From Ferribacterium limneticum (lineage in GTDB: Bacteria; Pseudomonadota; Gammaproteobacteria; Burkholderiales; Rhodocyclaceae): DNA of 64,000 nt. This document shows, one piece after another, positions 7,519 through 57,718 of the stretch. How positions within the stretch are numbered: the stretch's first letter is position 1; each line of letters starts with the position of its first letter. Where the stretch lies: NCBI RefSeq assembly GCF_020510565.1, contig NZ_CP075189.1, forward strand, positions 3,462,501 to 3,526,500, read 5' to 3'. Below the pieces are notes generated by a model that ran no database searches, had not been told where the DNA came from, and worked only from the letters and a program-made list of their open reading frames with translations. The translations under genes were made by a program, and so were the position numbers.

Positions 7519-9249
7519 ATGCGCACTTCGCAGTTCTTTTTTACAACACTCAAGGAAGCGCCGGCCGACGCTGAAGTTATCAGCCAGAAAATGATGCTGC
7601 GCGCCGGCTATATCAAGCGCGCCGCGGCGGGCATTTATACCTGGATGCCGCTCGGTTTGCGTGTGCTGCGCAAGGTTGAGAATATCGTGCGCGAAGAGAT
7701 GAACAATGCCGGTGCGCTTGAGCTGCTGATGCCGGCCGTGCAGCCGGCCGAACTGTGGCAGGAATCCGGCCGCTGGGAACAATACGGCCCGGAACTGCTG
7801 CGTTTCAAGGATCGTCACCAGCGCGAATTTGTCATCGGCCCGACACACGAGGAAGTGATTACTGACGTCGTGCGGCGCGATGTGAAGAGCTATCGTCAGC
7901 TGCCGATTCACCTGTATCAGGTGCAGACCAAGTTCCGCGACGAGATTCGTCCCCGTTTTGGCGTCATGCGCGGACGCGAATTCCTGATGAAGGACGGCTA
8001 CTCGTTCCATTCGTCTTTCGACGATTTGAAGCGCGAATACTGCAACATGTACGACACCTACAGCCGGATTTTCACGCGCCTGGGCCTGCGGTTCCGTGCC
8101 GTGGCGGCTGACACCGGCTCGATTGGCGGCACCGGCTCGCATGAATTCCACGTTCTGGCCGATTCCGGCGAGGATGATATCGCTTTCTGCCCGGATTCCG
8201 GCTATGCCGCCAACGTCGAACTGGCCGAGGCCGTGGCGCCGTCCACCGCGCGCGGCGCTGCGACGCTGACGATGACCAAGGTCGCCACACCGGGCAAGAT
8301 GGCTTGCGTCGATGTCGCCGAATGCCTGGGCGTACCGCTGGAAAAAATCGTTAAATCGATTGCCGTCATGAGCGAGAAGGAAGATGGCAGCACGACATTC
8401 GCCCTGCTCTTGCTGCGCGGCGACCACGAACTGAATGAAATCAAGGCGAGCAAGATTGTCGCCATCAACCCCTTCCGTTTCGCTACGGAGCGCGAGGTCG
8501 AGGAATATCTGGGCTGCCAGCCCGGCTATATCGGCCCTTCCACGGTCGACCGGAAAAAAGTGGCTATTTTTGCCGACCGCAGCGTTGCCGCGATGAGCGA
8601 TTTCGTTTGCGGAGCCAACGAGGCAGGTTTCCACCTGACCGGCGTCAATTTTGGCCGCGATCTGCCGGAACCGGAAGTGGCCGATATCCGCAACGTCGTC
8701 GCTGGCGATCCTTCGCCCGACGGCAAAGGCACGCTGGAAATCCTCCGCGGCATCGAAGTCGGCCACATTTTCCAGCTCCGCCAGAAGTACGCCGAGGCGC
8801 TGAACTGCGCTTACCTCGATGAAAACGGCAAGAGCCAGATCATGGAAATGGGTTGCTACGGGATTGGCGTGTCGCGCATCGTCGGCGCCGCCATCGAGCA
8901 GGGCAACGACGACAAAGGCATCATCCTGCCGCCGGCCATAGCGCCGTTCGAGGTCTGCCTGGTGCCGATGGGCTATCACAAGAGCGAGGCTGTCAAGGCG
9001 GCCGCCGACCAGCTATACGGTGAATTGAAGGCGGCTGGCATCGACGTCGTGCTCGATGACCGCAACGAGCGCCCCGGCGTCATGTTTGCCGACATGGAAC
9101 TGATCGGCATCCCGCATCGCGTCGTCATTGGCGAGCGCGGTCTGAACGAAGGCCAGCTCGAATACAAGGGCCGCCGCGATGCTGAACCGACGATGATCGC
9201 GCAAGCCGATGTACTCAGCGTCCTCAAAGGAAAGTTGTGCGCCGCCTGA
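7519..9249 (+). CDS. proS: Prolyl-tRNA synthetase
   Basis: This 576-residue class II synthetase charges tRNA-Pro. It has the bacterial layout: catalytic motifs (motif 1 around [21 protein letters not shown], motif 2 [20 protein letters not shown], motif 3 [17 protein letters not shown]), an editing INS domain between motifs 2 and 3 (about 230-390), and a C-terminal anticodon-binding domain. Bases 8542-8571 carry an uptake-motif-like element encoding [13 protein letters not shown] within the INS domain. The end overlaps the next gene by 13 bases. Confidence 0.98.
8542..8571 (+). repeat. Dispersed core-plus-AT-tail element (in proS)
   Basis: The core reads ACGGTCGACCGG, one base off the consensus, followed by AAAAAA and, one helical turn on, TATTTTT. 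It closely matches the copy after fpr at 46625-46656. It lies in frame within the editing domain of proS. Confidence 0.6.
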
Positions 9250-9848
9250 TTGCGGCCCTTTGTTTGTGTGGCGCGTCAGCGGCCTTCGCCGGCGCGCAAG
9301 TATATGAACCGCTTTCGGCCAGCGTCCAGGCTGCGCTGCACAAGGCTGTCTCAGACTCCCGCCCGACAGTCAGTTCGTTCAAGACCCCGATGGAGGCGGC
9401 CGACTGGCTGGGCGAGATGTCGCGCCGGCTGGAAAAACGCATCCCGAACCGCGAATACCGCATCGATCTGTTGCGCAGCGTGCATTACGAAGCGACCCGC
9501 GCCGGGCTGGATCCGCAGCTGGTGCTCGGCCTGATGCAGGTCGAATCCGGCTTCCGCAAATACGCCGTGTCGTCGGCCGGGGCGCGCGGCTACATGCAGG
9601 TCATGCCCTTCTGGGTCAAGGTGATCGGCCGCCCGGATGACTCGCTGTTCGACCTGCGGACCAGCCTGCGCTACGGCTGCACCATCCTGCGTCATTACCT
9701 GGATATCGAAAAGGGCGACTACTTCCGCGCCCTCGGCCGCTACAACGGCAGCCTGGGAAAACCGGAATATCCGAACATGGTCCGCGCCGCCTGGCAGAAC
9801 CAGTGGGGTTACGACAAACCTTCCCGACTGGCACAGTCAGGACTTTGA
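9237..9848 (+). CDS. Lytic transglycosylase (SLT domain)
   Basis: This 203-residue exported murein hydrolase has a signal peptide at residues 1-18 and an SLT fold at about 75-175. The catalytic glutamate is in [15 protein letters not shown] (Glu103), followed by [12 protein letters not shown] and a YNGS segment. The start is GTG at 9237, preceded by AAAGGAAAG and overlapping the end of proS by 13 bases, which implies translational coupling. It ends just before a long hairpin shared with ffh. Confidence 0.9.
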
Positions 9849-9875
9849 TTTTGGGCCTTTTTTCCGGTTGACCGT
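9847..9875 (-). repeat. Dispersed core-plus-AT-tail element, left half of a head-to-head pair
   Basis: On the minus strand there is an exact core ACGGTCAACCGG, then AAAAAA, GGCCC and AAAATC. It faces the next copy at 9885-9918 and together they form the hairpin terminator. Confidence 0.8.
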
Positions 9876-9907
9876 GGGATTGCCACGGTCAACCGGAAAA
9901 AAGACCC
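9853..9907. terminator. Bidirectional hairpin terminator between slt and ffh
   Basis: The 25-base arms 9853-9877 and 9883-9907 are complementary with a single mismatch, around the 5-base loop GATTG. T runs inside the arms and A runs after them suit termination in both directions for the convergent genes. The hairpin is made of two head-to-head copies of the dispersed element. Confidence 0.8.
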
Positions 9908-9918
9908 AAAAATGAAAT
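9885..9918 (+). repeat. Dispersed core-plus-AT-tail element, right half of a head-to-head pair
   Basis: There is an exact core ACGGTCAACCGG, then AAAAAA, GACCC and an AT tract AAAAATGAAAT that runs to the ffh stop codon. Confidence 0.8.
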
Positions 9919-11273
9919 CAGCGCATCCCAGGCATCATTCCCTTCATGCCACGCATGAGCTTGCCGATGCCGCCCTTGGCCATCATCTTCATCATTTTCT
10001 GCGACTGTTCGAACTGGTTGAGCAGGCGATTGACCTCCTGCACCTGAACCCCCGCCCCCATCGCTATGCGACGCTTGCGGCTGGCTTTGATCAGTTCCGG
10101 CTTGGCCCGCTCAAGCGGCGTCATCGAATTGATGATCCCCTCGACCCGTCCGACCATCTTGTTCTCAGCCCCGGCCGGCATCTGACCGGCCATCTGGGCG
10201 ATCTGTGCCGGCATCTTGTCCATCAGCGCCGACAGGCCGCCCATATTGCGCATCTGGCCGATCTGTTCCTTGAAATCGTTGAGATCGAAGCCCTTGCCGG
10301 ATTTGAGCTTCTTGGCGAAGGCAATCGCCTTTTCCTCATCCAGACCTTTCTTGGCATCTTCGATCAGCGACAACACATCGCCCATACCGAGAATCCGCGA
10401 GGCCATCCGCTCCGGATGGAAAGCCTCCAGCCCGGTCAGCTTCTCGCCCACACCCGAGAACTTGATTGGCTTGCCGGTGACATGGCGCACCGACAACGCT
10501 GCACCACCACGCGAATCGCCATCCAGCTTGGTCAGCACGACGCCCGTCAGCGGCAATGCCTCGTTGAAGGACTTGGCCGTATTGACCGCATCCTGGCCCA
10601 ACATGGCATCGACGACGAACAATGTTTCGATCGGGTTGATCGCGGCATGCAGCCGCTTGATTTCGGCCATCATTTCTTCGTCGATAGCCAGACGGCCGGC
10701 CGTATCGACGAGCAACACGTCGTGGTAATGACGCTTGGCCCAGTCAATCGCCGCCACGGCAATCGCCTCGGGCTTCTCGCCAATGGTCGACGGGAAGAAA
10801 TCGATCCCGGCCTGCCCGGCCACCGATTTCAACTGCTCGATAGCCGCCGGACGATAAACGTCACAGGAGACAACCAGCACCTTCTTCTTGTGATTTTCCT
10901 TGAGGAACTTGCCCAGCTTGCCGACCGTCGTCGTCTTGCCGGCGCCCTGCAAACCAGCCATCAGGATAATCGCCGGCGGCTGGGTATTGAAATTGATGCC
11001 TTCGTGGGCATCGCCCATGATCTTGGTCAGTTCGGCGTGCACAACGCCGATCAGCGCCTGACCCGGGCTCAACGAACCGATCACCGCCTCGCCGACCGCC
11101 TTTTCCTTCACTGCAGCGATAAAATCCTTGACCACCGGCAAGGCCACGTCGGCCTCGAGCAGCGCCATACGCACTTCGCGCAAGGCATCGGCAATATTGG
11201 TTTCGGTCAGGCGAGCTTCGCCCTTGAGCGTCTTCATGACGCGAGCAAGGCGATTGGTCAGGTTATCGAGCAT
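9918..11273 (-). CDS. ffh: Signal recognition particle protein Ffh
   Basis: This 451-residue SRP54 GTPase targets nascent membrane proteins to the translocon with 4.5S RNA. Its parts are an N domain (1-85), a G domain with GLQGAGKTTT, DTAGR and TKLDGD motifs, and a methionine-rich M domain ending KLMRGMKGMMPGMR. The start MLDNLTNRLARVMK at 11273 is chosen over an upstream in-frame ATG that adds 30 non-conserved residues. It is divergent from the CcsA-like gene with a 29-base gap. Confidence 0.97.
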   Translation of the reverse strand: MLDNLTNRLARVMKTLKGEARLTETNIADALREVRMALLEADVALPVVKDFIAAVKEKAVGEAVIGSLSPGQALIGVVHAELTKIMGDAHEGINFNTQPPAIILMAGLQGAGKTTTVGKLGKFLKENHKKKVLVVSCDVYRPAAIEQLKSVAGQAGIDFFPSTIGEKPEAIAVAAIDWAKRHYHDVLLVDTAGRLAIDEEMMAEIKRLHAAINPIETLFVVDAMLGQDAVNTAKSFNEALPLTGVVLTKLDGDSRGGAALSVRHVTGKPIKFSGVGEKLTGLEAFHPERMASRILGMGDVLSLIEDAKKGLDEEKAIAFAKKLKSGKGFDLNDFKEQIGQMRNMGGLSALMDKMPAQIAQMAGQMPAGAENKMVGRVEGIINSMTPLERAKPELIKASRKRRIAMGAGVQVQEVNRLLNQFEQSQKMMKMMAKGGIGKLMRGMKGMMPGMR

Positions 11274-14044: not shown

Positions 14045-14059
14045 TGAAAAGGAAAAAAT

Positions 14060-18903: not shown

Positions 18904-19263
18904 ATGCAGACTTTCCTGCGCCTCCTGATCGTCGCCTGGCTGGCGATCGGGAGCGCATTTGCTTTCAGTTTCGGGCGCGATGCTACGGTCGACACGATTT
19001 TGGTGGCAAATTTGCCCACCGAAGCCCGGCAAACACTTGCCCTGATCAAGGCCGGCGGCCCGTTTCCCTATGAGCGAGATGGCATCGTATTCGGCAACTT
19101 CGAAAAACGCCTGCCCTTGCACCCGCGTGGCTATTACCGCGAATACACGGTAAAAACACCGTGGCGCAAGGATCGCGGGCCTCGCCGGATCGTCGCCGGC
19201 CGGGACAGCAACTACTATTACACCGACGACCACTACCGGACCTTTCGGCAAATCGCGGAATAG
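18904..19263 (+). CDS. Secreted barnase-like guanyl-specific ribonuclease
   Basis: This 119-residue protein has a signal peptide (about 1-20). The microbial ribonuclease N1/T1 fold shows the barnase active-site spacing: Glu in YYREYTV, Arg in PRRIVAG, and His in DDHYRTFRQI near the C terminus. It should cut RNA after G in the periplasm or outside the cell. It starts 6 bases after aspS and is followed after 10 bases by a barstar-like gene. A non-toxic role in extracellular RNA scavenging remains possible. Confidence 0.85.
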   Translation: MQTFLRLLIVAWLAIGSAFAFSFGRDATVDTILVANLPTEARQTLALIKAGGPFPYERDGIVFGNFEKRLPLHPRGYYREYTVKTPWRKDRGPRRIVAGRDSNYYYTDDHYRTFRQIAE

Positions 19264-21665: not shown

Positions 21666-22328
21666 ATGAAAAACCCGGTCTGGCTGTTCGACCTCGACAA
21701 CACGCTGCACAACGCGACGCCGCATATCTTTCCCCACATCAATCGGTCTATGCGCCAATACATCGAGCGCCATCTGGGCGTAGACGAGCACGAGGCGACG
21801 CGCATTCGACAAGGCTACTGGGAGCGCTATGGCGCCACGCTGCTTGGCCTGATGCGTCACCATGGGACAGACCCGCGCCATTTCCTCTGGGAGACCCACC
21901 AGTTTCCCGACCTGCCGCGCATGGTCGTCTTCGACAAGCCCTTGCTGCACACTCTGCGTCGACTACCCGGCCGCAAGATCATTTTCTCCAACGCGCCGCG
22001 CCATTACGCCGAAGCCATCCTCGACCTCACCGGCCTCGGTCGCTGTTTCGATGCCGTTTATTCGGTCGAAAACCTGCGTTTCCAACCCAAACCCATGCTC
22101 GCCGGATTCCGCACCCTGCTCCGCGCCGAGCATCTCGACCCGCGCAGCTGCATCATGATCGAAGACAGTCTGGCCAACCTGGTCACCGCCAAAAAGCTGG
22201 GCATGAAAACCGTGTGGGTGAGCGCTGGCTCACGCCAGTCGCCTTTTGTTGACGTTAAAATCCGCTCGGCAACACAATTATCAAAATGCTACGGTCGACT
22301 GGAAATTTCGGCCAAAAATGAAATCTGA
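21666..22328 (+). CDS. HAD-family pyrimidine 5'-nucleotidase-like phosphatase
   Basis: This 220-residue HAD hydrolase has motif I FDLDNTLHN (about 9-17), motif II SNAPRHY, and motif IV MIEDSLANL. The closest family I recognise is the SDT1/YjjG-like pyrimidine nucleotidases, which share the DLDNTL and FSNA motifs and the helical cap. The true substrate is uncertain. It lies 12 bases before slmA. Confidence 0.8.
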   Translation: MKNPVWLFDLDNTLHNATPHIFPHINRSMRQYIERHLGVDEHEATRIRQGYWERYGATLLGLMRHHGTDPRHFLWETHQFPDLPRMVVFDKPLLHTLRRLPGRKIIFSNAPRHYAEAILDLTGLGRCFDAVYSVENLRFQPKPMLAGFRTLLRAEHLDPRSCIMIEDSLANLVTAKKLGMKTVWVSAGSRQSPFVDVKIRSATQLSKCYGRLEISAKNEI

Positions 22329-28679: not shown

Positions 28680-28697
28680 TCTTTGCCGCAGATTGCT

Positions 28698-28731
28698 ACG
28701 GTCAACCGGCAAAATTGACCAAAATTGAAAT
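28698..28731 (+). repeat. Dispersed core-plus-AT-tail element (msrQ/bioC gap)
   Basis: There is an exact core ACGGTCAACCGG, then CAAAATTG, ACC and AAAATTGAAAT. It is preceded by GATTGCT, as in the copies at 39307 and 52695. It lies between the convergent ends of msrQ and bioC. Confidence 0.8.
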
Positions 28732-30675: not shown

Positions 30676-31419
30676 ATGGATTATCACGGACACTCCGGCT
30701 GGCTGTCAATTTTACCCCAGCCCGATGGACTCAAACGGCTTGGCCGGAAAATCCTCGATGCCGTCCTGCCGGGAAGCTGTCTGCTCTGTGGCGCCGACAG
30801 CCAAGGAGGCCTGCTCTGCCCGCCATGCACGAACGATCTTCCGCTGTTGCCCAAGGCTTTGTGCCCGATCTGCGCCGTCCCGACAACGCATGGCGAACGC
30901 TGCGGCGCCTGCCTGCGCGACAAACCACATTTCGACCGCGCCATCGCCCTCTTTTGCTACGACTTTCCCGCCGACCGGATCGTTCATGCACTCAAGTACG
31001 GGCACCAACTGGCGGTAGCCGGCTGGGCCGGGCAAAAGCTGGCCGAACTGACCGCCGCCGATGCCTTCGACTGCATCGTCCCCCTGCCTTTGCACGCCGA
31101 ACGTCTCCAGGAACGGGGTTTCAACCAGTCCGCCGAGATCGCCAAGGCATTTCAATTTTGGGCAAAAATCCCGGTTGACCGTGGGAATGTCCTGCGCACG
31201 CGGATAACGCCGCCCCAAGCCGCGATGCCGCACAAGGAACGCCATAAAAACGTCCGCGGAGCCTTCGAGTGTCGGCGCGACTTCACCGGCCAGCGCCTGC
31301 TGCTCATCGACGATGTGATGACCACCGGCGCCACCGCCAACGAGTGCGCCCGCGTCCTTAAACTGCACGGCGCCGCCGAGGTCACCGTTGCCGTTATCGC
31401 CCGTGCGCTACGGCACTGA
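30676..31419 (+). CDS. comF: ComF family phosphoribosyltransferase-like protein
   Basis: The protein is 247 residues. An N-terminal double zinc ribbon has CLLCGADSQGGLLCPPC and CPICAVPTTHGERCGAC. The phosphoribosyltransferase fold ends in the PRPP loop LLLIDDVMTTGAT (about 205-217). ComF/GntX proteins are required for natural transformation in Bacillus and Haemophilus. The exact step is unsettled. Bases 31149-31182 inside the gene are a dispersed-motif copy encoding FQFWAKIPVDRGN. It is divergent from bioB. Confidence 0.9.
   Translation: MDYHGHSGWLSILPQPDGLKRLGRKILDAVLPGSCLLCGADSQGGLLCPPCTNDLPLLPKALCPICAVPTTHGERCGACLRDKPHFDRAIALFCYDFPADRIVHALKYGHQLAVAGWAGQKLAELTAADAFDCIVPLPLHAERLQERGFNQSAEIAKAFQFWAKIPVDRGNVLRTRITPPQAAMPHKERHKNVRGAFECRRDFTGQRLLLIDDVMTTGATANECARVLKLHGAAEVTVAVIARALRH
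31149..31182 (-). repeat. Dispersed core-plus-AT-tail element (in comF)
   Basis: On the minus strand there is an exact core ACGGTCAACCGG, then GATTTTTG, CCC and AAAATTGAAAT. It lies in the linker before the TPPQA segment of comF. Confidence 0.8.
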
Positions 31420-34860: not shown

Positions 34861-34888
34861 GATAAAACCTCGTTTCGGTGAATGGCGC

Positions 34889-34894
34889 ATTATA
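34889..34894 (-). promoter_or_regulatory. Perfect -10 element of the ArsR-rhodanese-grxC-secB-gpsA row
   Basis: The minus strand reads TATAAT, with the start predicted near 34882. It lies in a 75-base gap with a strongly AT-rich centre (34885-34920) shared with the divergent EnvC-like gene, so the repressor could control both directions. Confidence 0.55.
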
Positions 34895-34935
34895 AAATAG
34901 CGTTTTACGTTTCGCTTAATCGAAATCAATCCGCG

Positions 34936-36369
34936 ATGACCTTTGGACACACCCGGCCCGGCCAGCGCAGCCCTCGGCCCACCGGCAAAAGGCTGACAGC
35001 GGCACTGATTGCCGCGGTTTTCCTGGGCGCAGCGCCGGTCGGTGCCAAGCCAGTTGCGGCCGAAAAAAAATCCGCCCAGATCGTCGCCTCGCCCGATATC
35101 GCCGAAAAACAGGCCGATCTGGGCGAATTGCGCAGTCGAATCGAAGGATTACGCAAGGAATTATCCAGCAGCGAAGAGAGCAAAGCTGACGCCGGCGACC
35201 GCCTGCGCGAATCCGACCGCCAGATTTCGCGGCTGCAACGCGAACTGCACGAATTGAACGATTCCCGCGGTCAACTGGAAAAAAAGCTCAAAAACCTCGA
35301 ACAACAATCGCAGGAACTCGGCGTTACGCTAAGCCAACAACAAGGGCAGCTGGAAAAACTGATCTACAAACAATACCTGCGCGGCACCCCGGACTCGCTG
35401 CAACTGCTGCTCAACGGCGACGATCCCAACCAGATGGCGCGCGACCTGCATTACCTGTCGGCCATTGCGCTGACCCGCGCCGAGCTGATGGGCGAAATCA
35501 ACGCCACGCTGGACAAGAAGAAATCGCTGGCCGCCGATGCCAAGGAGCGCAGCGCCGAACTGGCCGAGGTCGAGGCCGAGCAGAAAAAGCGCCATGCCGA
35601 TTTGCAGAAGCAGCGCGAGGAGCGCCAGGCGCTGTACGCCCAGTTGGCCAGCAAGGTCAGCGCCCAGCGCAAGGAAATCGGCACCCTGCAACAAAATGAA
35701 AAGCGGATGACGCAGCTCATTGATCGGCTGTCAAAAATCCTTGCTGCCCAGGCGGCACGGGCGGCCAAGGCCGCCGAAGCCGCACGGCTGGCCGAAGCAC
35801 GGCAGGCGGCGGCAAGACAAAAGGAAAAAGAGCGCGAGAAGGAACGGGAAAAGGACAAGCGCCCGGCGCATACAGAAGAGCGGGAAATCGCCCGCCCGAC
35901 TCCCGCCATAGAGCCCACCCGCCCAAGAACCGTCGAAGCCGAAAACCACTACGAACCCGCCCCGAGCAACGGCAGTTTCGCCCGCCAGCGCGGCAGCCTG
36001 CGCCTGCCGGTACGCGGCGCGGTCTCCGGCCGTTTCGGTTCGGCCCGAGATGGCGGCGGCACCTGGCGCGGCCTGTTCATCAAGGCCGGTGCCGGCAGCG
36101 AGGTCAAAGCCATCGCCGGCGGCCGCGTTGTCTTCTCGGAATGGATGCGCGGCTTCGGCAATCTGCTCATCGTCGACCACGGCGACGCCTACCTGTCGAT
36201 CTACGGCAACAACGATGCCTTGCTCAAACAAGTCGGCCAGGCCGTCAAGGGTGGAGAAACGGTAGCCACTGTGGGTAACAGCGGGAGCAATCCCGAATCG
36301 GGTTTATACTTTGAACTCCGCCACCAAGGGCAACCGATCGACCCGATGAAATGGGCCAGCTTGAAATGA
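34936..36369 (+). CDS. EnvC-like murein hydrolase activator (M23/LytM domain)
   Basis: The protein is 477 residues from MTFGHTRPGQ. A signal or anchor segment (about 20-38) is followed by a long coiled coil (about 60-265), a basic K/E/R-rich linker (about 275-345) and a LytM domain (about 365-475). The LytM domain ends GETVATVGNSGSNPESGLYFELRHQG. The histidines of an active M23 site are only partly present (VDHGDAYLSIY, LYFELRHQG), as in EnvC, which activates amidases rather than cutting itself. It overlaps ctpA by 4 bases. Confidence 0.88.
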   Translation: MTFGHTRPGQRSPRPTGKRLTAALIAAVFLGAAPVGAKPVAAEKKSAQIVASPDIAEKQADLGELRSRIEGLRKELSSSEESKADAGDRLRESDRQISRLQRELHELNDSRGQLEKKLKNLEQQSQELGVTLSQQQGQLEKLIYKQYLRGTPDSLQLLLNGDDPNQMARDLHYLSAIALTRAELMGEINATLDKKKSLAADAKERSAELAEVEAEQKKRHADLQKQREERQALYAQLASKVSAQRKEIGTLQQNEKRMTQLIDRLSKILAAQAARAAKAAEAARLAEARQAAARQKEKEREKEREKDKRPAHTEEREIARPTPAIEPTRPRTVEAENHYEPAPSNGSFARQRGSLRLPVRGAVSGRFGSARDGGGTWRGLFIKAGAGSEVKAIAGGRVVFSEWMRGFGNLLIVDHGDAYLSIYGNNDALLKQVGQAVKGGETVATVGNSGSNPESGLYFELRHQGQPIDPMKWASLK

Positions 36370-38279: not shown

Positions 38280-39107
38280 ATGACCGACGAGCAGCTTCTC
38301 CGTTATAGCAGGCACATCCTGCTCGACGCGCTGGGCATCGAAGGCCAGACGCGCATTCTTGACTCTCACGCGCTGATCATCGGGGCTGGCGGTCTTGGCT
38401 CGCCGGCGGCGCTCTATCTGGCCTCGGCAGGGATTGGCAGGATCACGCTGGTCGATGACGACACGGTCGATTTCACTAATCTGCAACGCCAGATTCTGCA
38501 TACCCAGGCACGTGTCGGCATGGCCAAGGCCGAATCCGGCCGGCAGGCGCTGAGCGCCATCAATCCTGACATTGAGATCATTCCGCTGCAGCAGCGTCTA
38601 TCGGGCGAAGCGCTCGATGCGCTGGTTGCCAGCGCCGACCTCGTTCTCGACTGCACTGACAATTTCGCCACCCGGCACGCCATCAATCGCGCCTGCGTGC
38701 ATCACCGCAAGCCGCTGGTGTCCGGTGCGGCCATTCGCTTCGATGGCCAGATCAGCGTTTACGACCTGCGCCGCGACGATTCGCCGTGCTACCACTGCCT
38801 GTTTCCTGAAGGCGAGGATGTCGAGGAAGTGCGCTGCGCCGTGATGGGCGTCTTCGCGCCGCTGACCGGCATCATCGGCACCATGCAGGCGGCCGAGGCC
38901 CTGAAGCTGGCAGCTGACATCGGTGAAACGCTGACCGGGCGGCTATTGCTGCTCGATGCGCTAACCATGGAATGGCGCACCGTCCGTTTCCGGAAAGACG
39001 ACGATTGTGCCGTGTGCGGGCCTAAGGGAAACGTGCGATCAGGCGAATATCTTCGCCAAGCTGGCGCAGATCGCGAATCTTCAAGCGCCGCTTGCCGTCT
39101 AGCCTAG
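38280..39107 (+). CDS. moeB: MoeB/ThiF-family adenylyltransferase
   Basis: This 275-residue E1-like enzyme has the ATP site GAGGLGSPAALYLASAGIG (about 37-55), TLVDDDTVDFTNLQRQ, and two zinc CxxC pairs (CYHCLFPE and CAVCGP). It adenylates the C terminus of MoaD, or of ThiS, for sulfur transfer. Family members usually end soon after CxVCG. Here no stop follows, and the frame runs about 28 residues further, antisense to the ribD end. moeB is preferred over thiF because of length and the nearby mog. Confidence 0.87.
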   Translation: MTDEQLLRYSRHILLDALGIEGQTRILDSHALIIGAGGLGSPAALYLASAGIGRITLVDDDTVDFTNLQRQILHTQARVGMAKAESGRQALSAINPDIEIIPLQQRLSGEALDALVASADLVLDCTDNFATRHAINRACVHHRKPLVSGAAIRFDGQISVYDLRRDDSPCYHCLFPEGEDVEEVRCAVMGVFAPLTGIIGTMQAAEALKLAADIGETLTGRLLLLDALTMEWRTVRFRKDDDCAVCGPKGNVRSGEYLRQAGADRESSSAACRLA

Positions 39108-40110
39108 TCAGTTCAGGTAGGTTGAACAAGCCGCTCGCGTCGTGGCCGATCAGGCAGGGCGCCAGATAGAGCAGTAGTTCATCGACCAGACCTTCGCGCA
39201 ACAGCGAACCATTGAGCTTGAAGCCGGCTTCGGCATGCACCTCGTTGATGCCGCGCTGGGCAAGCAATTCGAGTAGCGCCTTGAGGTCAACCTTGCCGGC
39301 GCCGTCATTTAAAATTTCGACGAAATTTCCGGTTGACCGTAGCAATGCCATTTTTTCGGCATTTTCAACGGCGCCAACGATCAGCACCGGCTCGCCTTGC
39401 AGAACACGCGCCGTCAGCGGAATTTCCAGCCGGCTATCGACTACCACGCGCAAAGGCTGACGCGTCGTCGCCACATCGCGCACGGTCAGACTCGGATCGT
39501 CGTCGCGCACGGTGCCGATACCGGTCAGGATGGCGCAGGCACGGGCCCGCCAGGCGTGACCGTCACGCCGCGCATCGGGACCGGTGATCCACTGGCTGAC
39601 GCCGTTGTTGAGAGCCGTCTTTCCATCCAGACTGGCCGCCGCCTTGAGGCGCAACCACGGCCGGCCACGCGTCATGCGCGAGACAAAGCCAATGTTCAGT
39701 TCGCGCGCCTCGTTTTCCAGCAAACCGCTCGCCGTCTCGATACCAGCCGCCTGCAACAAGGCGAGGCCTTTGCCAGACACGAGCGGATTCGGATCGGTCA
39801 TTGCCGCCACGACGCGCGAAACGCCGGCAGCAATCAGCGCCTCGGCGCAGGGCGGCGTGCGGCCGTGATGGCTGCACGGCTCCAGCGTCACGTAAGCCGT
39901 CGCGCCCTTGGCTTTCTCGCCAGCGGCGCGCAGGGCATGGACTTCGGCATGCGGCTCGCCGGCTTTCTCGTGCCAGCCTTCGCCAACGATTTCACCGTCG
40001 CGGACCACGACGCAACCAACCCGCGGATTGGGCGATGTCGTCCACAGGCCGCGCTCAGCCAGCTGCAGGGCGCGCGCCATCATGCCGTAGTCGACGGCTG
40101 AAAAGCTCAT
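39022..40110 (-). CDS. ribD: Bifunctional riboflavin deaminase/reductase RibD
   Basis: The protein is 362 residues. The N-terminal deaminase domain carries the zinc motifs [11 protein letters not shown] and [11 protein letters not shown]. The C-terminal reductase domain (about 150-362) includes [18 protein letters not shown]. It makes the pyrimidine intermediate of riboflavin. The start overlaps the nrdR stop by 4 bases and the glyA-nrdR-ribD order is typical. The reductase domain holds a dispersed-motif copy. The 3' end overlaps moeB by 86 bases. Confidence 0.95.
39307..39340 (-). repeat. Dispersed core-plus-AT-tail element (in ribD)
   Basis: On the minus strand, ATTGCT precedes an exact core ACGGTCAACCGG, followed by AAATTTCG, TCG and AAATTTTAAAT. 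It encodes [12 protein letters not shown] in the RibD reductase domain. Confidence 0.8.
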
Positions 40111-45855: not shown

Positions 45856-46635
45856 ATGAGCAACCTGGCCACCGAAACCGTCACTTCCGTCCATCACTGG
45901 AACGACAGTCTGTTCACCTTCCGCACCACCCGCGACCCCGGCCTGCGCTTCACCAACGGCCAGTTCGTGATGATCGGTCTGGAAGTCGATGGCCGCCCGC
46001 TGACCCGCGCCTACAGCATCGCCAGCGCCAACCATGAGGAATATCTCGAGTTCTTCAGCATCAAGGTCCAGGACGGCCCGCTGACTTCCCGTCTGCAGCA
46101 CCTCAAGCCGGGCGACCCCTTGCTGGTCAGCAAGAAGCCCACCGGCACGCTGGTATTGCGCGACCTCAAGCCGGGCAAACGCCTGTTCATGTTCGCCACC
46201 GGCACCGGCCTGGCGCCTTTCATGAGCCTGATCCACGATCCGGAAACCTACGAGCGCTTCGAAAAAGTCATCCTCATTCACGGCGTCCGCTGGACCAATG
46301 AACTGGCCTACCACGACTACATCGAGCAGGATCTCAAGGAGCACGAGTACTTCGCCGACTGGGTCAAGGAAAAGCTCATTTACTACCCGACAGTGACGCG
46401 CGAACCCTTCCGCAACGAGGGGCGCCTGACCGACCTGATCGAATCCGGGAAATTCTTTACCGACATCGGCCAGCCGCCGCTCGACCCGGCCACCGACCGC
46501 GCCATGATCTGCGGCAGCCCGGCCATGCTCGAAGACACGGCTGCCATGCTCGACGCTCGCGGCTTCGAAGTCGGCAACCATCACACCGGCAAGCTCGGCG
46601 ACTACGTGATCGAACGCGCCTTTGTTGAAAAATAG
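45856..46635 (+). CDS. fpr: Ferredoxin/flavodoxin-NADP+ reductase
   Basis: The protein is 259 residues. The FAD site RPLTRAYSIASAN (RxYS) lies at about 50-62. The NADP site is FATGTGLAPFMSLI and the C terminus ends IERAFVEK, as in bacterial subclass I Fpr. It supplies electrons to ferredoxins or flavodoxin in redox and iron stress. The start is preceded by AAGGAG at 45842. A dispersed-motif copy straddles its stop codon. Confidence 0.93.
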   Translation: MSNLATETVTSVHHWNDSLFTFRTTRDPGLRFTNGQFVMIGLEVDGRPLTRAYSIASANHEEYLEFFSIKVQDGPLTSRLQHLKPGDPLLVSKKPTGTLVLRDLKPGKRLFMFATGTGLAPFMSLIHDPETYERFEKVILIHGVRWTNELAYHDYIEQDLKEHEYFADWVKEKLIYYPTVTREPFRNEGRLTDLIESGKFFTDIGQPPLDPATDRAMICGSPAMLEDTAAMLDARGFEVGNHHTGKLGDYVIERAFVEK

Positions 46636-46656
46636 CCATTTTTTCCGGTTGACCGT
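46625..46656 (-). repeat. Dispersed core-plus-AT-tail element (fpr end)
   Basis: On the minus strand there is an exact core ACGGTCAACCGG, then AAAAAA, TGGC and TATTTTTCAAC. The AT tail reaches into the last codons of fpr. Confidence 0.8.
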
Positions 46657-46793
46657 GGGAAATGGGCCGGGCTATCGTGAGAATAGCCAAAATGAATTGG
46701 CGGCGCGCCAGCCAGACGCGCATCATTCAATCGTTGCCTGACCAGTTTGTTTTTCTGGTCAAAGGTCCACCTGATCAACGAAGGGAGAAAATC

Positions 46794-47255: not shown

Positions 47256-47263
47256 CAGACTTC

Positions 47264-47297
47264 ACGGTCAACCAGAAAAAAAGGCCAAAATCAAAAA
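47264..47297 (+). repeat. Dispersed core-plus-AT-tail element (after dps)
   Basis: Core ACGGTCAACCAG (one mismatch), then AAAAAAA, GGCC and AAAATCAAAAA. It lies 8 bases after the dps stop and just before the terminator. Confidence 0.75.
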
Positions 47298-48004: not shown

Positions 48005-48033
48005 TAAAAAAACCGCGAATTTCGCGGTTTTTT
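48005..48033. terminator. Bidirectional terminator between the exported protein and dctP1
   Basis: AAAAAACCGCGAA and TTCGCGGTTTTTT form an almost perfect inverted repeat between two convergent genes. Its right arm doubles as the AT tract of the dispersed element at 48016-48045. Confidence 0.85.
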
Positions 48034-48045
48034 CGGGTTGACCGT
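48016..48045 (-). repeat. Dispersed core-plus-AT-tail element (dctP1 end)
   Basis: On the minus strand, GCC precedes core ACGGTCAACCCG (one mismatch), followed by AAAAAA, CCGCG and AAATTC. Confidence 0.7.
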
Positions 48046-48053
48046 GGCGCGCC

Positions 48054-52002: not shown

Positions 52003-52542
52003 ATGCAAGAAGAAGATTTCACCGAAGACACCGGCCGCCCCTCGAAGACCAAAAAGAAAGAGGCGATGCATGAATTGCGCGATCTTGGCGCCGAACTGGT
52101 CGAGCTTTCGGTCGGCCAACTGAAGGCGATCAAGCTGCCGGAAAACATTTTCGAAGCGGTGCGCGAATGCCAGAAGATCACTGCCCACGGCGCCCATCGC
52201 CGGCAGGTAGCGTATCTCGGCAAGCTCATGCGCGGCGTCGACGACGAACCGATCCGCGCCGGCCTGGCCATGCTGCGCGGCGAATCCTCAGCCGAGACGG
52301 CGCGGTTGCATCGCCTCGAGCGTTTCCGCAATCGCTTCCTCGAAGACGAAGCCTATCTGGCTGAAATTGCAGCAGTCTGGCCCTCCATCGACCTCCAGCA
52401 CATGCGCCAGCTGCGTCGTAATGCGTTGAAGGAGCAGGAAAACAACAAGCCGCCGAAAAATTTCCGCGCCATTTTCCAGATACTGCAGGAACTCGACAAG
52501 CAGGGCACGCCCGCGGCTGAACAGAAAGCTGGCGATGAATGA
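52003..52542 (+). CDS. darP: Ribosome biogenesis factor DarP (YjgA/DUF615)
   Basis: The protein is 179 residues from MQEEDFTEDTGRPSKTKKKE. DUF615 motifs: ELRDLGAELVELS, KLPENIFEAVRECQKITAHGAHRRQVAYLGKLMR and FRNRFLEDEAYLAE. It binds late 50S precursors. pmbA-darP divergence and a following mog are typical for beta- and gammaproteobacteria. The start is set by the conserved N terminus. An upstream ATG lies in the promoter gap. It overlaps mog by 8 bases. Confidence 0.95.
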   Translation: MQEEDFTEDTGRPSKTKKKEAMHELRDLGAELVELSVGQLKAIKLPENIFEAVRECQKITAHGAHRRQVAYLGKLMRGVDDEPIRAGLAMLRGESSAETARLHRLERFRNRFLEDEAYLAEIAAVWPSIDLQHMRQLRRNALKEQENNKPPKNFRAIFQILQELDKQGTPAAEQKAGDE

Positions 52543-53125
52543 TGAACTGGTCGTCGGCCTCGTTTCGATCAGCGACCGCGCGTCGACCGGCGTCTATGAA
52601 GACAAGGGCATCCCTGCCCTGCAGGAATGGCTGACTTCGGCGCTGACTACGCCGTGGCGCGTCGAAACCCGGCTGATCGCCGACGACCGCGAGACAATTG
52701 AAAATACGCTGATTTCTCTGGTTGACCGTAGCAATTGCCATCTGGTCCTGACCACCGGCGGCACCGGCCCGGCCTTGCGCGACGTCACGCCGGAAGCGAC
52801 GCTGGCCGTCGCCGACAAGGAAATGCCCGGCTTCGGCGAAGAAATGCGGCGGATCAGCCTCAATTTCGTGCCGACCGCGATCCTCTCGCGGCAAGTGGCC
52901 GTCGTCCGCAAGCAGGCGCTGATCATCAACCTGCCCGGCCAGCCGAAATCGATCAAAGAAACGCTCGAAGGCGTTCGCAACGCTGACGGGACGGTCGCCC
53001 ACGTCGGCATCTTCGCCGCCGTGCCTTATTGCATCGACCTGATCGGTGGCCCTTATGTCGAAACGAATGAGGCAGTGATCAAGGCTTTCCGGCCCAAATC
53101 GGGAATTCGCCCACCCAAGTCCTGA
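52535..53125 (+). CDS. mog: Molybdopterin adenylyltransferase
   Basis: The protein is 196 residues. Motifs: SISDRASTGVYEDKG, LVLTTGGTGPALRDVTPEAT (cofactor-binding) and LPGQPKSIKETL. It adenylates molybdopterin before metal insertion. The copy at 52695-52729 of the dispersed element encodes ENTLISLVDRSNC just before the LTTGG loop. It ends next to a convergent PilZ-like gene. Confidence 0.93.
   Translation: MNDELVVGLVSISDRASTGVYEDKGIPALQEWLTSALTTPWRVETRLIADDRETIENTLISLVDRSNCHLVLTTGGTGPALRDVTPEATLAVADKEMPGFGEEMRRISLNFVPTAILSRQVAVVRKQALIINLPGQPKSIKETLEGVRNADGTVAHVGIFAAVPYCIDLIGGPYVETNEAVIKAFRPKSGIRPPKS
52695..52729 (-). repeat. Dispersed core-plus-AT-tail element (in mog)
   Basis: On the minus strand, ATTGCT precedes core ACGGTCAACCAG (one mismatch), followed by AGAAATCA, GCG and TATTTTCAATTG. 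Confidence 0.7.
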
Positions 53126-54670
53126 TCAGCCGAGCGAACTCCGGCGATAGCGCGCCAGTTCGTAATCGGCGGTCTGCTCGCTCAGGGCAATCGGCGTCAG
53201 CAGGAAGCGCTGACCATCCCGGACATATTCCAGGCTTTCGCGCTGGTCGAAGGTCATCGGCGGCAAGATGATCCGAAACTCATCGGCCTCGTTGCCGTCG
53301 AGCAGCATCAGGGTCGGTGTTCCCGCTGCCGCGGCATAGCTGGACACGGCCCGAATCTGCACTTCTACCGCCAGCGCTTTCGTGGCCAAAGCCTGAATGC
53401 CGACGCGGGCATCCTTTTCGGATAGCCGGTGATAACGGCGAATCACCCCGAGCAGCCAGTTGTCACCGCCTTCCGGCTGCATGGCAACGAGGGCGCCGAC
53501 CTTCAGCCATTCGCCCGGCGCACTTCTGAGCAAGGCGCCGAAGCCACCGCGACTGACATTTTCGGCAACCCAAGTGTCCGTCGGCAAACCCGCCGCCTGA
53601 CCGCCAAACTCATCGGAGAAAACAACGAAAGCGTTGACCAGTCCATTCAGCACCGACATGCGGTGCGTGACGCGATGGCGGTCGTGCAGGCGCTGCGGCG
53701 GCATCGGTGAAAGGTAGTTGGTCAAATGGCGGAACACCGTGACCAGCAGCTTGACCGGATACTGTCCGCCAAGACTGATTTCGGGCGGCATGTCGCCACC
53801 TCGCTCCAGCGTCTCGAGGACCGCCTGCATCGCCTCGTGGGCCGCGCCGGGCTTGAGGAAGCGCTGCGTCGGCTCGGCCTTGGCCGGCCGGCGCGCCAGG
53901 CGCAGCGGCGGCTGAGCCAGCTTGAGATCGACCCAATAGACGCTATCAATCTGAGCCTCGACGGTAAATACAAAACCGGGCAGAAAATGGGCGATGATCT
54001 GTTCGGCCAGCTCGATGCCGACCGGCAGCAGGCTATCGAGCGACGCCGCCTGGAATATCATGACTTTCTGGTATTCGTGCAGCGGGGAGGTCATGCCACT
54101 CCTGCCCGGCAAGGCTACCGCCTTGCCTGCCACGCCCGCCTCCTCAGCCGCCATCAAGGCGCGCCCCAGGCTCTGCCAACAGATGTCCCGCGACGGGCCA
54201 TAATGAAACTGTTCCCACTTGAGGGCCCGGCCGAGGGCTACCATCAAGCGAACGCATAATGTCGGCAGCACCAACTTCGGCAACTCGCCGGGCCGACCTT
54301 TCTCGCCGATGGCCGGCAGACAGCGCTCATAGGCGGCGCCCAGGCGGGTCCAGAAAGCATAATTGATCGACCACAGACGGTTTTCTTCGGATTTCGACAG
54401 ACGAACGCTCCCGAAATACTCGCGGGAAAGACGCTTCAGATGCGGCTGAGCCGCTTCCTCGAACTGCTCGAGAACCTCGTACAAGGTGCCACTGGGAAAA
54501 TTACTGACGCCTTCCAGCGATTCGAGCCAACCGGAGATTTCGTCGAGCGCCTTGAAGGCGTTGTCCTTGGGCAATTCGCTGAGGACTCTGCGCAATTCGC
54601 GCGCATTGGCCAGTGGATGATCTGATTTCTGGGCAAAGAACCCGCCCAGATTGGCTACCTTGTTGAGCAC
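53126..54670 (-). CDS. Large protein with C-terminal PilZ-like domain
   Basis: This 514-residue cytoplasmic protein has no signal or membrane segments. The first 330 residues are helical and unfamiliar. The C-terminal part (about 340-440) has RHRVTHRMSVLNG and, some 45 residues on, VAENVSRGGFGALL, which match the R..R and (D/N)xSxxG signature of c-di-GMP-binding PilZ domains. It may link c-di-GMP to surface behaviour. The N-terminal partner domain is unknown. It is convergent with mog (0-base gap). The residue match is from reading only. Confidence 0.6.
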   Translation of the reverse strand: MLNKVANLGGFFAQKSDHPLANARELRRVLSELPKDNAFKALDEISGWLESLEGVSNFPSGTLYEVLEQFEEAAQPHLKRLSREYFGSVRLSKSEENRLWSINYAFWTRLGAAYERCLPAIGEKGRPGELPKLVLPTLCVRLMVALGRALKWEQFHYGPSRDICWQSLGRALMAAEEAGVAGKAVALPGRSGMTSPLHEYQKVMIFQAASLDSLLPVGIELAEQIIAHFLPGFVFTVEAQIDSVYWVDLKLAQPPLRLARRPAKAEPTQRFLKPGAAHEAMQAVLETLERGGDMPPEISLGGQYPVKLLVTVFRHLTNYLSPMPPQRLHDRHRVTHRMSVLNGLVNAFVVFSDEFGGQAAGLPTDTWVAENVSRGGFGALLRSAPGEWLKVGALVAMQPEGGDNWLLGVIRRYHRLSEKDARVGIQALATKALAVEVQIRAVSSYAAAAGTPTLMLLDGNEADEFRIILPPMTFDQRESLEYVRDGQRFLLTPIALSEQTADYELARYRRSSLG

Positions 54671-54850
54671 CGCCCCCCTCCTTCAATAATTATTTTTTAA
54701 CAGTGTAAACCGACAAATCGCCGTCTGCCGTGAGTAATTTCCACATTCCGGCAATATTACCAGTGGATAATTTCGCCTCTGTGGCCGAGCGACGTTTCGG
54801 CCTGCCATGTAGAATAGATCGTTTATTGATAGCTCCGGACAGCCGACTCG

Positions 54851-55645
54851 ATGCAGCCCTACCTTGACCTGATGCGCCACGTTCTCGAGAACGGGCACGA
54901 AAAATCCGACCGCACCGGCACCGGCACGCGCTCGGTCTTTGGCTGGCAGATGCGTTTCGATCTAGCCAAGGGTTTCCCGATGGTCACGACCAAGAAGCTC
55001 CATCTGAAGTCCATTGTTCACGAATTGCTGTGGTTCCTGCAGGGCGACACCAATATCGCCTACCTCAAGGAAAACGGCGTCCGCATCTGGGACGAATGGG
55101 CCGACGAAAACGGCGATCTCGGACCGGTTTACGGCAAACAGTGGCGCCGCTGGGAAACGCCGGACGGGCGTGTGATCGACCAGATCACGCAACTGGTGGG
55201 CAGCCTCAAGAACAACCCCGACTCGCGCCGCCATGTTGTTTCCGCATGGAATCCGGGCGACGTCGACAGCATGGCGCTACCGCCCTGCCATTGCCTGTTC
55301 CAGTTCTACGTGGCGAATGGCAAGCTGTCCTGCCAGCTCTACCAGCGCAGCGCTGACATCTTTCTCGGTGTGCCGTTCAACATCGCTTCCTACGCCTTGC
55401 TTACCCTCATGCTGGCCCAGGTCTGCGGCTACCAGCCGGGCGAATTCGTCCATACATTCGGCGACGCGCACATTTATTCGAATCATTTTGACCAGGCCAA
55501 ACTCCAGCTTTCGCGCGAAATGCGCCCGCTGCCGACGATGTGGATCACTCCCACGGTCAACGACATTTTTGCCTTCAAATTCGAAGACTTCCGTCTCGAC
55601 GGCTACGACCCGCATCCGCACATCGCCGCCCAGGTGGCCGTCTGA
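54851..55645 (+). CDS. thyA: Thymidylate synthase
   Basis: The protein is 264 residues. Catalytic cysteine in [13 protein letters not shown], folate-binding C terminus ending [12 protein letters not shown], and [20 protein letters not shown]. It makes dTMP using methylene-tetrahydrofolate. TAGAAT at 54810-54815 is a likely -10. It heads thyA-pgi-folA. folA, which recycles the dihydrofolate produced, follows in the same row. Confidence 0.97.
55553..55587 (+). repeat. Degenerate dispersed element (in thyA)
   Basis: CCC precedes ACGGTCAACGAC (three mismatches at the core end), followed by ATTTTT, GCCTTC and AAATTCGAAG with the same spacing. It encodes [13 protein letters not shown], close to ordinary ThyA, so chance resemblance cannot be excluded. 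Confidence 0.35.
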
Positions 55646-55647
55646 CC

Positions 55648-57249
55648 ATGCAGGTGCCACTTCGTCCCGCCTGGCTCGCGCTGGCCGAACACGCGCGCAG
55701 CATCAAGCACCGCCACCTGCGCGACCTATTTTCAGCTGATCCGGCGCGTTTCTATCGCTTCTCGGTGCAGGCCGACAATCTCCTGCTCGACTACTCGAAA
55801 CAGCGCCTCGACCAGCACACCATGGGCTTGCTTCGGCAACTGGCCGAACAGGCCGGCTTGCGCACCTGGATCGAGCGCATGCGCACCGGCGAGCCGATCA
55901 ATCACACCGAAGGCCGCGCGGTCCGCCATGCCGACCTGCGCGCCGGTGATGCGGCACCGCCCGAGGTCAAAAGCGTGCTCGCCCGCCTGGCCGGCTTTTG
56001 CGAACAGATCCACGGCGGCCAATGGCGAGGCTTTTCGGGTGAGCGCATCACGGATGTCGTCAATATCGGCATCGGCGGTTCGGATCTCGGCCCGCGCATG
56101 GCCGTCCACGCCCTGGCCGCCTTCCAGCAGCCCGACATCAACGTCCATTTCGTCTCCAACCTCGACAGCGCCGATCTGGCCAGCACGCTGACCCGCCTCA
56201 ACCCGCGCAGCACCCTGTTCATCGTCGCCAGCAAGACCTTCACGACGCTGGAAACCATGGCCAACGCGCGTACCGCGCGCAACTGGATAGTCGCCGCGGC
56301 CGGCAACGAAGCGGCCATTGCCCGGCATTTCGTCGCCGCCTCGACCAATCTGGCCGCCACGGCCGAGTTCGGCATCGCACCGGAAAACGTCTTTGAATTC
56401 TGGGACTGGGTCGGCGGCCGCTTCTCGCTGTGGTCGGCCATCGGCCTGCCCATCGCGCTGGCCGTCGGTTTCCGTCATTTCGAACAACTGCTCGCCGGCG
56501 CCCACGCCATGGACGAGCATTTCTTCAAAGCCACGCCCGACAGCAACCTGCCACTGACGCTGGCCCTCGTCGCGCTGTGGAACACCAACTTCCTCGACGC
56601 CCACAGCCACGGAGTCTTTCCCTACAGCCACTCGCTGGCCCTGCTGCCCTCGCACCTGCAGCAGCTCGAAATGGAAAGCAACGGCAAGCGCGCCAACCGC
56701 GACGGTCTGGCGGTCGATTACCCGACCAATCCGATTTTGTGGGGCGAAGCCGGGACCAATGGCCAGCACTCATTCTTCCAGCTACTGCACCAGGGCAGCG
56801 CGCTGGTTGCCTGCGATTTCATCGCCCTCGGCAAATCCGACTTTCCGCTGCCTGGCCACCACAGCGGCCTGCTCGCCAACTGCCTCGCCCAGTCGTCGGC
56901 GCTGGCTTTCGGCCAGACTGTCGAGGAAGCACGCGCCGCCGGCATCCCCGAGCATTTGCTGGCCTTCCGCCGCTTTCCCGGCAACCAGCCGTCGTCGACG
57001 CTCATCCTGCCCGAGCTGACCCCTTTCACCCTGGGCCAACTCATCGCGCTCTACGAACACAAGGTTTTCTGCCTTGGCGTGCTGTGGAACCTCAACTCCT
57101 TCGATCAGTGGGGCGTCGAACTCGGCAAGCAACTGGCCGGCAAGCTCGCCCCCTGCATACGCGACGAGGCGCCGACCGACGGTCTCGACCCGTCGACGCG
57201 CGGACTGATCAATCATTTGCGCCGTTTCCGGAGCGAACCCCATGACTGA
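55648..57249 (+). CDS. pgi: Glucose-6-phosphate isomerase
   Basis: The protein is 533 residues from MQVPLRPAWLALAEHARSIK. Family motifs: NIGIGGSDLGPRMAVHAL, FVSNLDSADLASTL, FEFWDWVGGRFSLWSAIGLP, and QLEMESNGKR with GEAGTNGQHSFFQLLHQG. It interconverts glucose- and fructose-6-phosphates. The start 55648 follows thyA by two bases. An in-frame upstream ATG lies inside thyA. It overlaps folA by 8 bases. Confidence 0.97.
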   Translation: MQVPLRPAWLALAEHARSIKHRHLRDLFSADPARFYRFSVQADNLLLDYSKQRLDQHTMGLLRQLAEQAGLRTWIERMRTGEPINHTEGRAVRHADLRAGDAAPPEVKSVLARLAGFCEQIHGGQWRGFSGERITDVVNIGIGGSDLGPRMAVHALAAFQQPDINVHFVSNLDSADLASTLTRLNPRSTLFIVASKTFTTLETMANARTARNWIVAAAGNEAAIARHFVAASTNLAATAEFGIAPENVFEFWDWVGGRFSLWSAIGLPIALAVGFRHFEQLLAGAHAMDEHFFKATPDSNLPLTLALVALWNTNFLDAHSHGVFPYSHSLALLPSHLQQLEMESNGKRANRDGLAVDYPTNPILWGEAGTNGQHSFFQLLHQGSALVACDFIALGKSDFPLPGHHSGLLANCLAQSSALAFGQTVEEARAAGIPEHLLAFRRFPGNQPSSTLILPELTPFTLGQLIALYEHKVFCLGVLWNLNSFDQWGVELGKQLAGKLAPCIRDEAPTDGLDPSTRGLINHLRRFRSEPHD

Positions 57250-57718
57250 AGTCGTCATCATCGCCGCCGTGGCGAAGAACCGCGTGATCGGCAAGGATAA
57301 TCAGCTAATCTGGAACATTCCCGAAGACATGGCGCACTTCAAGGCGCTGACGGCCGGCCACACGGTGATCATGGGGCGCAAGACCTGGGAGTCGCTACCG
57401 CCGCGGTTTCGTCCGCTACCCGGCCGGCGCAACATCGTGATCAGCCGGCAAACCGACTACGCCGCCCCCGGTGCCGAATTGGCCGATTCCCTGGAAAACA
57501 GCCTGAAACTGGCATCATCCGCCGACACCGTTTTCATCATCGGCGGCGAGCAAATTTACGCCCAGGCGATGGCCTTGGCCGACCGCCTCGAAATCACCGA
57601 AGTCGACCTCGAACCCGAGGGCGATGCGTGGTTTCCCGAGATTTCCACGGTCAACTGGAAAAAAACATCAAATTTGAAAAGCGCGGGCTGCGCTTTCGTC
57701 ACCTACCGGAAGCAGTAA
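57242..57718 (+). CDS. folA: Dihydrofolate reductase
   Basis: The protein is 158 residues. IIAAVAKNRVIGKDNQLIWNIPEDMAHFK with the substrate aspartate, GRKTWESLP, and FIIGGEQIYAQAM are all present. It regenerates tetrahydrofolate for ThyA two genes upstream. A dispersed-element copy (57647-57680) encodes STVNWKKTSNLKS in place of the usual D..W segment without changing length. The stop is followed by a long hairpin. Confidence 0.96.
   Translation: MTEVVIIAAVAKNRVIGKDNQLIWNIPEDMAHFKALTAGHTVIMGRKTWESLPPRFRPLPGRRNIVISRQTDYAAPGAELADSLENSLKLASSADTVFIIGGEQIYAQAMALADRLEITEVDLEPEGDAWFPEISTVNWKKTSNLKSAGCAFVTYRKQ
57647..57680 (+). repeat. Dispersed core-plus-AT-tail element (in folA)
   Basis: ATTTCC precedes core ACGGTCAACTGG (one mismatch), followed by AAAAAAA, CATC and AAATTTGAAAA. 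Confidence 0.75.

Follow-up and report, generated by a model that had tools for sequence, protein, structure and literature searches.

A putative DNA uptake signal sequence with phased AT tracts and subclade dialects in one genus of the Rhodocyclales

The closest described counterparts of the element reported here are the uptake signal sequences (USS) of the Pasteurellaceae and the DNA uptake sequences (DUS) of the Neisseriaceae. These sequences are described as highly frequent, regularly spaced and without orientation bias, and as preferring spacers in spite of many genic copies; they have a strong consensus, they arise by mutation, and their dialects differ between subclades while the inner core stays constant (PMC1626085, PMC3630211, PMC12616744, PMC7811141). 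The USS cores are AAGTGCGGT in the Hin type and ACAAGCGGT in the Apl type, with the inner core GCGG (PMC1626085, PMC12616744). Here, we analysed a dispersed motif in a 64-kb stretch of the Ferribacterium limneticum genome (bases 3462501-3526500 of NZ_CP075189.1, the only contig of this genome, which is 4150051 bases long), which is called the window below. The motif has a 12-base core, ACGGTCAACCGG, followed by two A/T tracts. As judged from sequence, its features agree with the descriptions of USS and DUS, and it is probably a DNA uptake signal sequence. The best explanation appears to be a further uptake-sequence system outside the Neisseriaceae and Pasteurellaceae, with a layout closest to that of the Pasteurellaceae USS.

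The exact core was found 462 times in the whole 4.15 Mb genome, 228 times on one strand and 234 times on the other, and the same word reversed, as a control, was found 4 times. An earlier note on the window had proposed an uptake-like motif in mixed orientation, and had named only a few dozen genome copies as an outcome that would speak against it; the strand counts bear out the mixed orientation, and the copy number is in the hundreds. Further analyses were performed with a sample of 864 kb, consisting of 40 stretches of 20 kb and the window. In this sample, 93 exact cores were seen as compared with 0.64 expected from an order-5 Markov model, the kind of comparison that the note had suggested for the whole genome. 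The expectation corresponds to about 0.05 per 64 kb, whereas the figure of 0.008 given in the note assumes equal base frequencies. The words ACGGTCAAC, TCAACCGGA and TGCTACGGT rank among the top 9-mers. The consensus is sharp, as perfect cores (93) outnumber one-off cores (61), while for two control words the perfect copies numbered 1 and 0 and the one-off copies 12 and 11.

A logo of 92 copies showed conservation from -7 to +33 relative to the core, with nearly flat flanks, and gave the extended consensus GATTGCY ACGGTCAACCGG AAAAAA n GGCC AAAATTGAAAT. The A/T tracts lie at +12..+17 and +23..+28 from the first base of the core, which sets them off by about one helical turn, and a third run, AAA, is found at +30..+32. 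The position +18 carries zero information and is flanked by conserved blocks. The AT tracts and the ATTGCY lead-in proposed earlier were thus recovered in a motif that is wider than had been claimed. The core is near-palindromic (CGGTC-R-ACCG), and its position 0 is A in 94% of the sites described next. An iterated 41-bp profile, trained on the same 864 kb that was scored, detected 184 sites with a threshold of 18 bits, and 190 when this was lowered to 12 bits; the reversed sequence gave 0 sites at all eight thresholds tried. Scaling from the 184 sites gives roughly 880 sites genome-wide.

The placement of the 184 sites was determined with gene calls from a simple home-made script. Spacers hold 73 of the sites, another 17 are at the edges of genes, and the remaining 94 lie entirely within predicted genes; the 90 sites not wholly coding make up 49%, as compared with 20% expected. 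The genic sites lie on the same strand as the gene in 56 cases and on the opposite strand in 38. The core begins on a codon boundary (ACG GTC AAC CGG) in 43 of the 56 same-strand copies, and one common frame is used in 26 of the 38 opposite-strand copies. The spacing is more even than random, as the note had proposed to check, with a coefficient of variation of 0.67 against 0.89 ± 0.06, and gaps below 500 bp numbered 5 against 17.4 ± 3.7. The motif density increases with the GC content of the stretch (Spearman 0.45, P 0.003). Only one of the 40 sampled 20-kb stretches had no motif copy (L060, G000:C1:2900001-2920000), and those at 2.0, 2.7 and 2.8 Mb had one copy each; these motif-free or motif-poor stretches are possibly acquired regions.

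To see how the copies arose, orthologous sites were compared. The site at 39307-39347 of the window, inside a ribD-type gene, was aligned with the best 30 of the 75 genomes of the genus that have a match. The 11 motif-rich genomes (see below) were the 11 best ribD matches, and kept the motif in place with few changes. The site reads ACGGTCGGCCGG in genomes G575 and G583 and ACGGTCGACGGG in G468; G590 retains the exact core and G565 has GCGGTCAACCGG, both with a 3-base insertion downstream. None of the 30 genomes had a gap of motif length, and the other genomes varied by substitutions and by insertion or deletion runs of at most 6 bases in the printed region. Further sites were aligned using DNA fetched for other analyses, with stretches from metagenome-assembled genomes (MAGs) that had been chosen as motif carriers. 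Among 39 alignments to genomes outside the motif-rich clade, 8 rows of which represent one repeated region, none had a motif-length gap and 22 were gap-free over the motif. At the genic sites in this set, 15 of 22 alignments lacked gaps and the other 7 contained 1-6 gap columns; the highest gap totals, 18 and 22 columns, were both intergenic. Of 47 alignments to MAG stretches within the clade, 34 had no gap in the motif, and each of these 34 retained a scoring motif. The same gap argument was used by Redfield and colleagues to show that USS are not insertions (PMC1626085). By this comparison, the copies appear to have arisen by point mutation.

Among the genomes sampled from the order, the motif is abundant in one genus only. 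In public genomes, the extended motif was found in at least 120 stretches, and the 80 matches listed come from nine MAGs, named as Dechloromonas (two), Azonexus, Azonexaceae, Rhodocyclaceae (two), Betaproteobacteria (two) and Gammaproteobacteria (one). The NCBI taxonomy places Dechloromonas in the Azonexaceae, Rhodocyclales, Betaproteobacteria. The count of the exact core in 76 genomes of the genus was bimodal: 11 genomes had 97-462 copies, the next had 45, and 12 had none. Outside the genus, the core reached at most 4 per genome among 297 sampled genomes of the order and at most 3 among 241 sampled genomes of the family. A dialect-free probe, CGGTC-N6-AAAWW-N7-AAAW, which had 0 matches in the reversed sample sequence, matched 149-372 times in each of the 11 motif-rich genomes. 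Elsewhere in the genus, it matched 256 times in G468, 210 in G601, 191 in G575, 172 in G583, 94 in G558 and 67 in G595, with 0 matches in 8 of the 76 genomes and 0-2 per genome for the reversed control. In 373 genomes of the family outside the genus, 61 had a match and the maximum was 4. The core-plus-AT architecture is abundant solely in this genus among 395 family genomes, the genus including MAGs named Dechloromonas and Azonexus.

Dialects of the motif were analysed in samples of 70-160 kb from each genome; for G438, G542, G218, G543 and G544, and in part for G468, the sampled stretches lay near known matches. Unbiased 9-mer counts gave TGCTACGGT 15 times in G575 and 8 times in G583 (0.77 and 0.58 expected), TGTTGCGGT 11 times in G565 (0.99 expected) and TGCGGTCGA 17 times in G550 (3.59 expected). 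The logo of G575 and G583 together, AATGCTACGGTCG with an AT-rich tail, was strong (23 sites vs 1 reversed), and so was the word logo of G468 (15 vs 0 reversed). Those of G565 (11 vs 6 reversed), G550 (15 vs 6) and G558 (17 vs 7) were weak; the weak G558 logo has CGGT followed by C or G (CGGTS). The block that is constant across the dialects of the genus is CGGT(C). When the same orthologous place was compared between the F. limneticum and G575 dialects, CGGTC and much of the AT tail were kept at some sites, while the lead-in and the right half were changed. A tree of one gene, ribD, from the best 30 of 75 genomes with a match, placed the 11 motif-rich genomes in one clade (100/99) and G468, G575 and G583 in a group beside it (89/89), and a separate part of the 30-genome sample had probe counts of 0-56. 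The dialects appear to be bound to subclades and to follow this one-gene phylogeny.

Other words were seen in the dialect samples. In 160 kb of G438 (stretches L191-L198), the perfect palindrome ACGGTCGACCGT was counted 18 times, often flanked on either side by runs of A or T, and it may be related to the motif or be a separate element; the refinement of profiles for dialects can drift, and clearly did so in G438. A 9-mer family such as TAGCTCCCT, with about 52 occurrences in the same 160 kb against fewer than 1 expected, is possibly an array of clustered regularly interspaced short palindromic repeats. In the G558 stretches L295-L298, the words TGTAGCTGT (10 vs 0.38 expected) and GTACAACTC (11 vs 0.65) are unrelated to the motif.

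In the window, 15 profile sites were found. Core matches with two or fewer mismatches also numbered 15, as compared with a mean of 5.47 (standard deviation 2.10, largest 11) in 100 dinucleotide shuffles; 4 of these 15 have two mismatches, and 2 of the 4 coincide with profile sites. All six exact and all five one-mismatch copies reported earlier were found again in place. The exact copies include an inverted pair at gene edges, 9842..9882 on the minus strand (55.2 bits) and 9878..9918 on the plus strand (62.9 bits). The others are an intergenic copy at 28691..28731 (+, 56.4 bits), one at 31149..31189 (-, 54.6 bits) inside a predicted gene of the opposite strand, the orthologue-test site at 39307..39347 (-, 51.9 bits) inside the ribD-type gene 39022-40110 (-, Pfam), and a gene-edge copy at 46623..46663 (-, 43.8 bits). 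The one-mismatch copies are located at 8535..8575 (+, 29.2 bits) inside a tRNA synthetase class II type gene (7519-9249, +, Pfam), at 47257..47297 (+, 43.0 bits) and 48012..48052 (-, 32.5 bits), both intergenic, at 52696..52736 (-, 35.9 bits), antisense within a MoCF_biosynth-type gene (52535-53125, +, Pfam), and at 57640..57680 (+, 51.5 bits) inside a dihydrofolate-reductase-type gene (57242-57718, +, Pfam). The copies absent from the earlier note are a strong one with a two-mismatch core at 22284..22324 (+, 52.5 bits), at the 3' end of a HAD-hydrolase-type gene (21666-22328, +, Pfam), another with a two-mismatch core at 35260..35300 (+, 35.2 bits) inside an M23-peptidase-type gene (34882-36369, +, Pfam), and a weak one at 18978..19018 (+, 21.3 bits) inside a predicted gene. 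The weaker copy that had been noticed near 55553 has three core mismatches, and still scores 24.4 bits on the 41-bp profile (55546..55586, +, inside a predicted gene).

If the motif is an uptake signal, a receptor of type IV pilus uptake, probably a minor pilin, would prefer free DNA carrying GATTGCY-ACGGTCAACCGG and, after it, two AT tracts separated by about one helical turn. The constancy of CGGTC suggests that the specific contact would be centred on it, and the AT tracts, after the Haemophilus model, may help the duplex to bend or open on its passage through the outer-membrane pore. DNA from within the clade would be preferentially taken up and recombined, and through this bias copies made by point mutation would spread in spacers and in tolerant reading frames. 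A shift in receptor specificity would then rewrite the motif set of the genome and produce dialects. At the sequence level, an uptake-type sequence, as the earlier note proposed, is supported by copy number, consensus, orientation, spacing, genic copies, orthologues, dialects and AT tracts. The system is presumably of independent origin. The broader idea of a third natural DNA-uptake-specificity system that evolved outside the Neisseriaceae and Pasteurellaceae, and matches Haemophilus in its CGG-centred contact and phased AT tracts, either through related minor-pilin receptors or because DNA physically has to be kinked at the pore in both, is possible, if rather doubtful.

The uptake machinery was surveyed in the genus. 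ComEC was detected in 71 of 76 genomes, including 51 of 51 of good quality, and is a frame of 775 codons in the F. limneticum genome, where the comEC-type gene has a motif copy near its 5' end, antisense (L341 4021-4061). Two partial ComEC matches lie on one contig in G568 (C33:109525 and C33:143311), G588 (C1:2218607 and 2251157) and G556 (C1:1959178-1959913), about 32-34 kb apart in G568 and G588, which suggests interrupted genes. Prepilin-type genes gave 15 matches in the F. limneticum genome. In three clade genomes, a copy of the motif overlaps with the beginning of a prepilin-like gene (L338 1764-1804, L342 2070-2110 and L343 1360-1400), the long-frame reading being GQPEILAKNE or similar. 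ComEA was not separable from longer HHH_3 proteins, and the best HHH_3 matches are mostly in frames of about 780-840 codons, which we take to be another protein, probably Tex. As markers, ComEC (71/76) and HHH_3 (76/76 genomes) were uninformative.

Several observations weigh against an uptake function. ComEC is also present in motif-poor relatives, so that competence genes do not split motif-rich from motif-poor genomes, and in the motif-rich G568 the second part of the split ComEC match is below the cut-off. The prepilin survey of six genomes found clusters but no dialect-linked receptor candidate. The ComP_DUS family (PF16732) has a match of 89 bits (cut-off 27.3) in the F. limneticum genome; however, by our reading the match follows a PilY1-like frame, and the family is present in 70 of 76 genomes, without regard to how many motifs these have. 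For these two reasons the match is not evidence for a ComP receptor, and assignment of ComP by family match was uninformative. The motif density, about 1 per 4.7 kb, is below the approximately 1 per kb given for USS and DUS (PMC1626085). Close inverted pairs were only 2 among the 184 sites, one at 9842/9878 of the window and one in L069. Within the clade, 13 of the 47 alignments were gapped in the motif, and the motif was hardly better conserved than its flanks, with identities of 0.90 vs 0.87 (n=47), 0.87 vs 0.83 (n=8) and 0.84 vs 0.87 (n=7). A scan of viral contigs for the extended motif yielded one contig only, the putative phage contig L307, with two profile sites (810-850 and 9379-9419), both of which, by eye, adjoin phage-tail-like frames. 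Finally, no publication on transformation in the genus was found, as judged by title and abstract.

Among the alternatives, the strongest is that an intracellular chromosome-organising or nucleoid protein binds the motif throughout the genome; this protein would read the core, with the AT tracts bending the DNA and the even spacing organising the chromosome. Even spacing, phased AT tracts and the near-palindromic core are as such a site would have them, and so are the 18 palindromes of G438, in stretches partly chosen near matches. However, the G575/G583 dialect loses the right half of the core while CGGTC stays, so that a palindrome is not required. Moreover, abundance swings from hundreds to near zero inside one genus and the word is rewritten at orthologous sites, both of which would be unusual for an essential organiser. 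We regard this explanation as unlikely.

Hundreds of copies of a fixed word would also be expected of a sequence guiding replication or recombination, such as Chi or the FtsK orienting polar sequences (KOPS), or of a transcription terminator element, and convergent genes, whose spacers make up 22545 of the 118230 available spacer positions, flank 30 of the 90 spacer or edge sites. Against this, the orientation of the 184 sites relative to GC skew, by which the replichores of the sampled stretches were judged, was 90 against 94 (P 0.83), which disfavours a replication-polar word, and half of the copies lie wholly in predicted genes, on both strands. Paired terminators fit poorly with the two inverted pairs and one tandem pair within 150 bp among the 184 sites, and this group of explanations is improbable. 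A small mobile repeat of the miniature inverted-repeat transposable element or repetitive extragenic palindromic type, spread by copying, would account for a strong consensus in hundreds of copies, but is still less probable. The flanks are unrelated, with mean pairwise identities of 0.27 and 0.26 and 6 pairs above 0.6, and thus lack the long shared flanks by which the note would have recognised such an element; terminal repeats, target duplications and RAYT transposase were outside the search. The uninformative +18 between conserved blocks, the one frame common to 43 of 56 same-strand genic copies, the gap runs of 6 bases or fewer at ribD and the 39 outside-clade alignments without a motif-length gap, 22 of them gap-free, also disfavour it.

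An uptake signal in this genus would be of interest for several reasons. In our literature search, which most subscription papers were beyond the reach of, no paper on uptake sequences in Rhodocyclales, Rhodocyclaceae or Dechloromonas was found. Self-labelling of DNA in a further lineage, which here is represented by environmental genomes, would show that this trait evolves repeatedly, and would make it possible to test whether DNA entry generally requires AT tracts with helical spacing. As the genus has several dialects, these would aid in finding the receptor, and their changes would form a natural series for the co-evolution of receptor and signal. Addition of the motif to donor DNA might also ease the transformation of these bacteria.

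The motif resembles the Pasteurellaceae USS (PMC1626085, PMC12616744) in its short core and the two AT-rich segments downstream of it, spaced roughly by a helical turn, in its strong consensus, regular spacing and lack of orientation bias, in having genic copies and copies that are not insertions, and in dialects that vary by subclade while an inner core remains constant. CGG is common to the motif and to the USS inner core GCGG, and the G565, G550 and G558 samples have GCGGT. On the other hand, the 12-bp core is another word, with the inner block CGGTC (CGGTS in G558) and not GCGG; the AT tracts start at +12 and +23 and are followed by a third AAA, the density is about 1 per 4.7 kb, and the Pasteurellaceae belong to another class of Proteobacteria than Dechloromonas (NCBI taxonomy). 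The host class, Betaproteobacteria, is shared with the Neisseriaceae DUS (NCBI for Dechloromonas; PMC12616744 for Neisseriaceae), as are phylogeny-following dialects and intragenic copies (PMC3630211). DUS are, however, described as having no flanking motifs (PMC1626085), whereas the motif has conserved AT tails. Their inner core is CTG in a word of 10-12 bases, while the motif consensus has no CTG and the words are unlike. The inverted pairs that are numerous among DUS (PMC3630211) are scarce here, and the DUS receptor is ComP, for which no gene was assignable in the F. limneticum genome. Because its core and inner core differ from both, the motif belongs to neither USS nor DUS.

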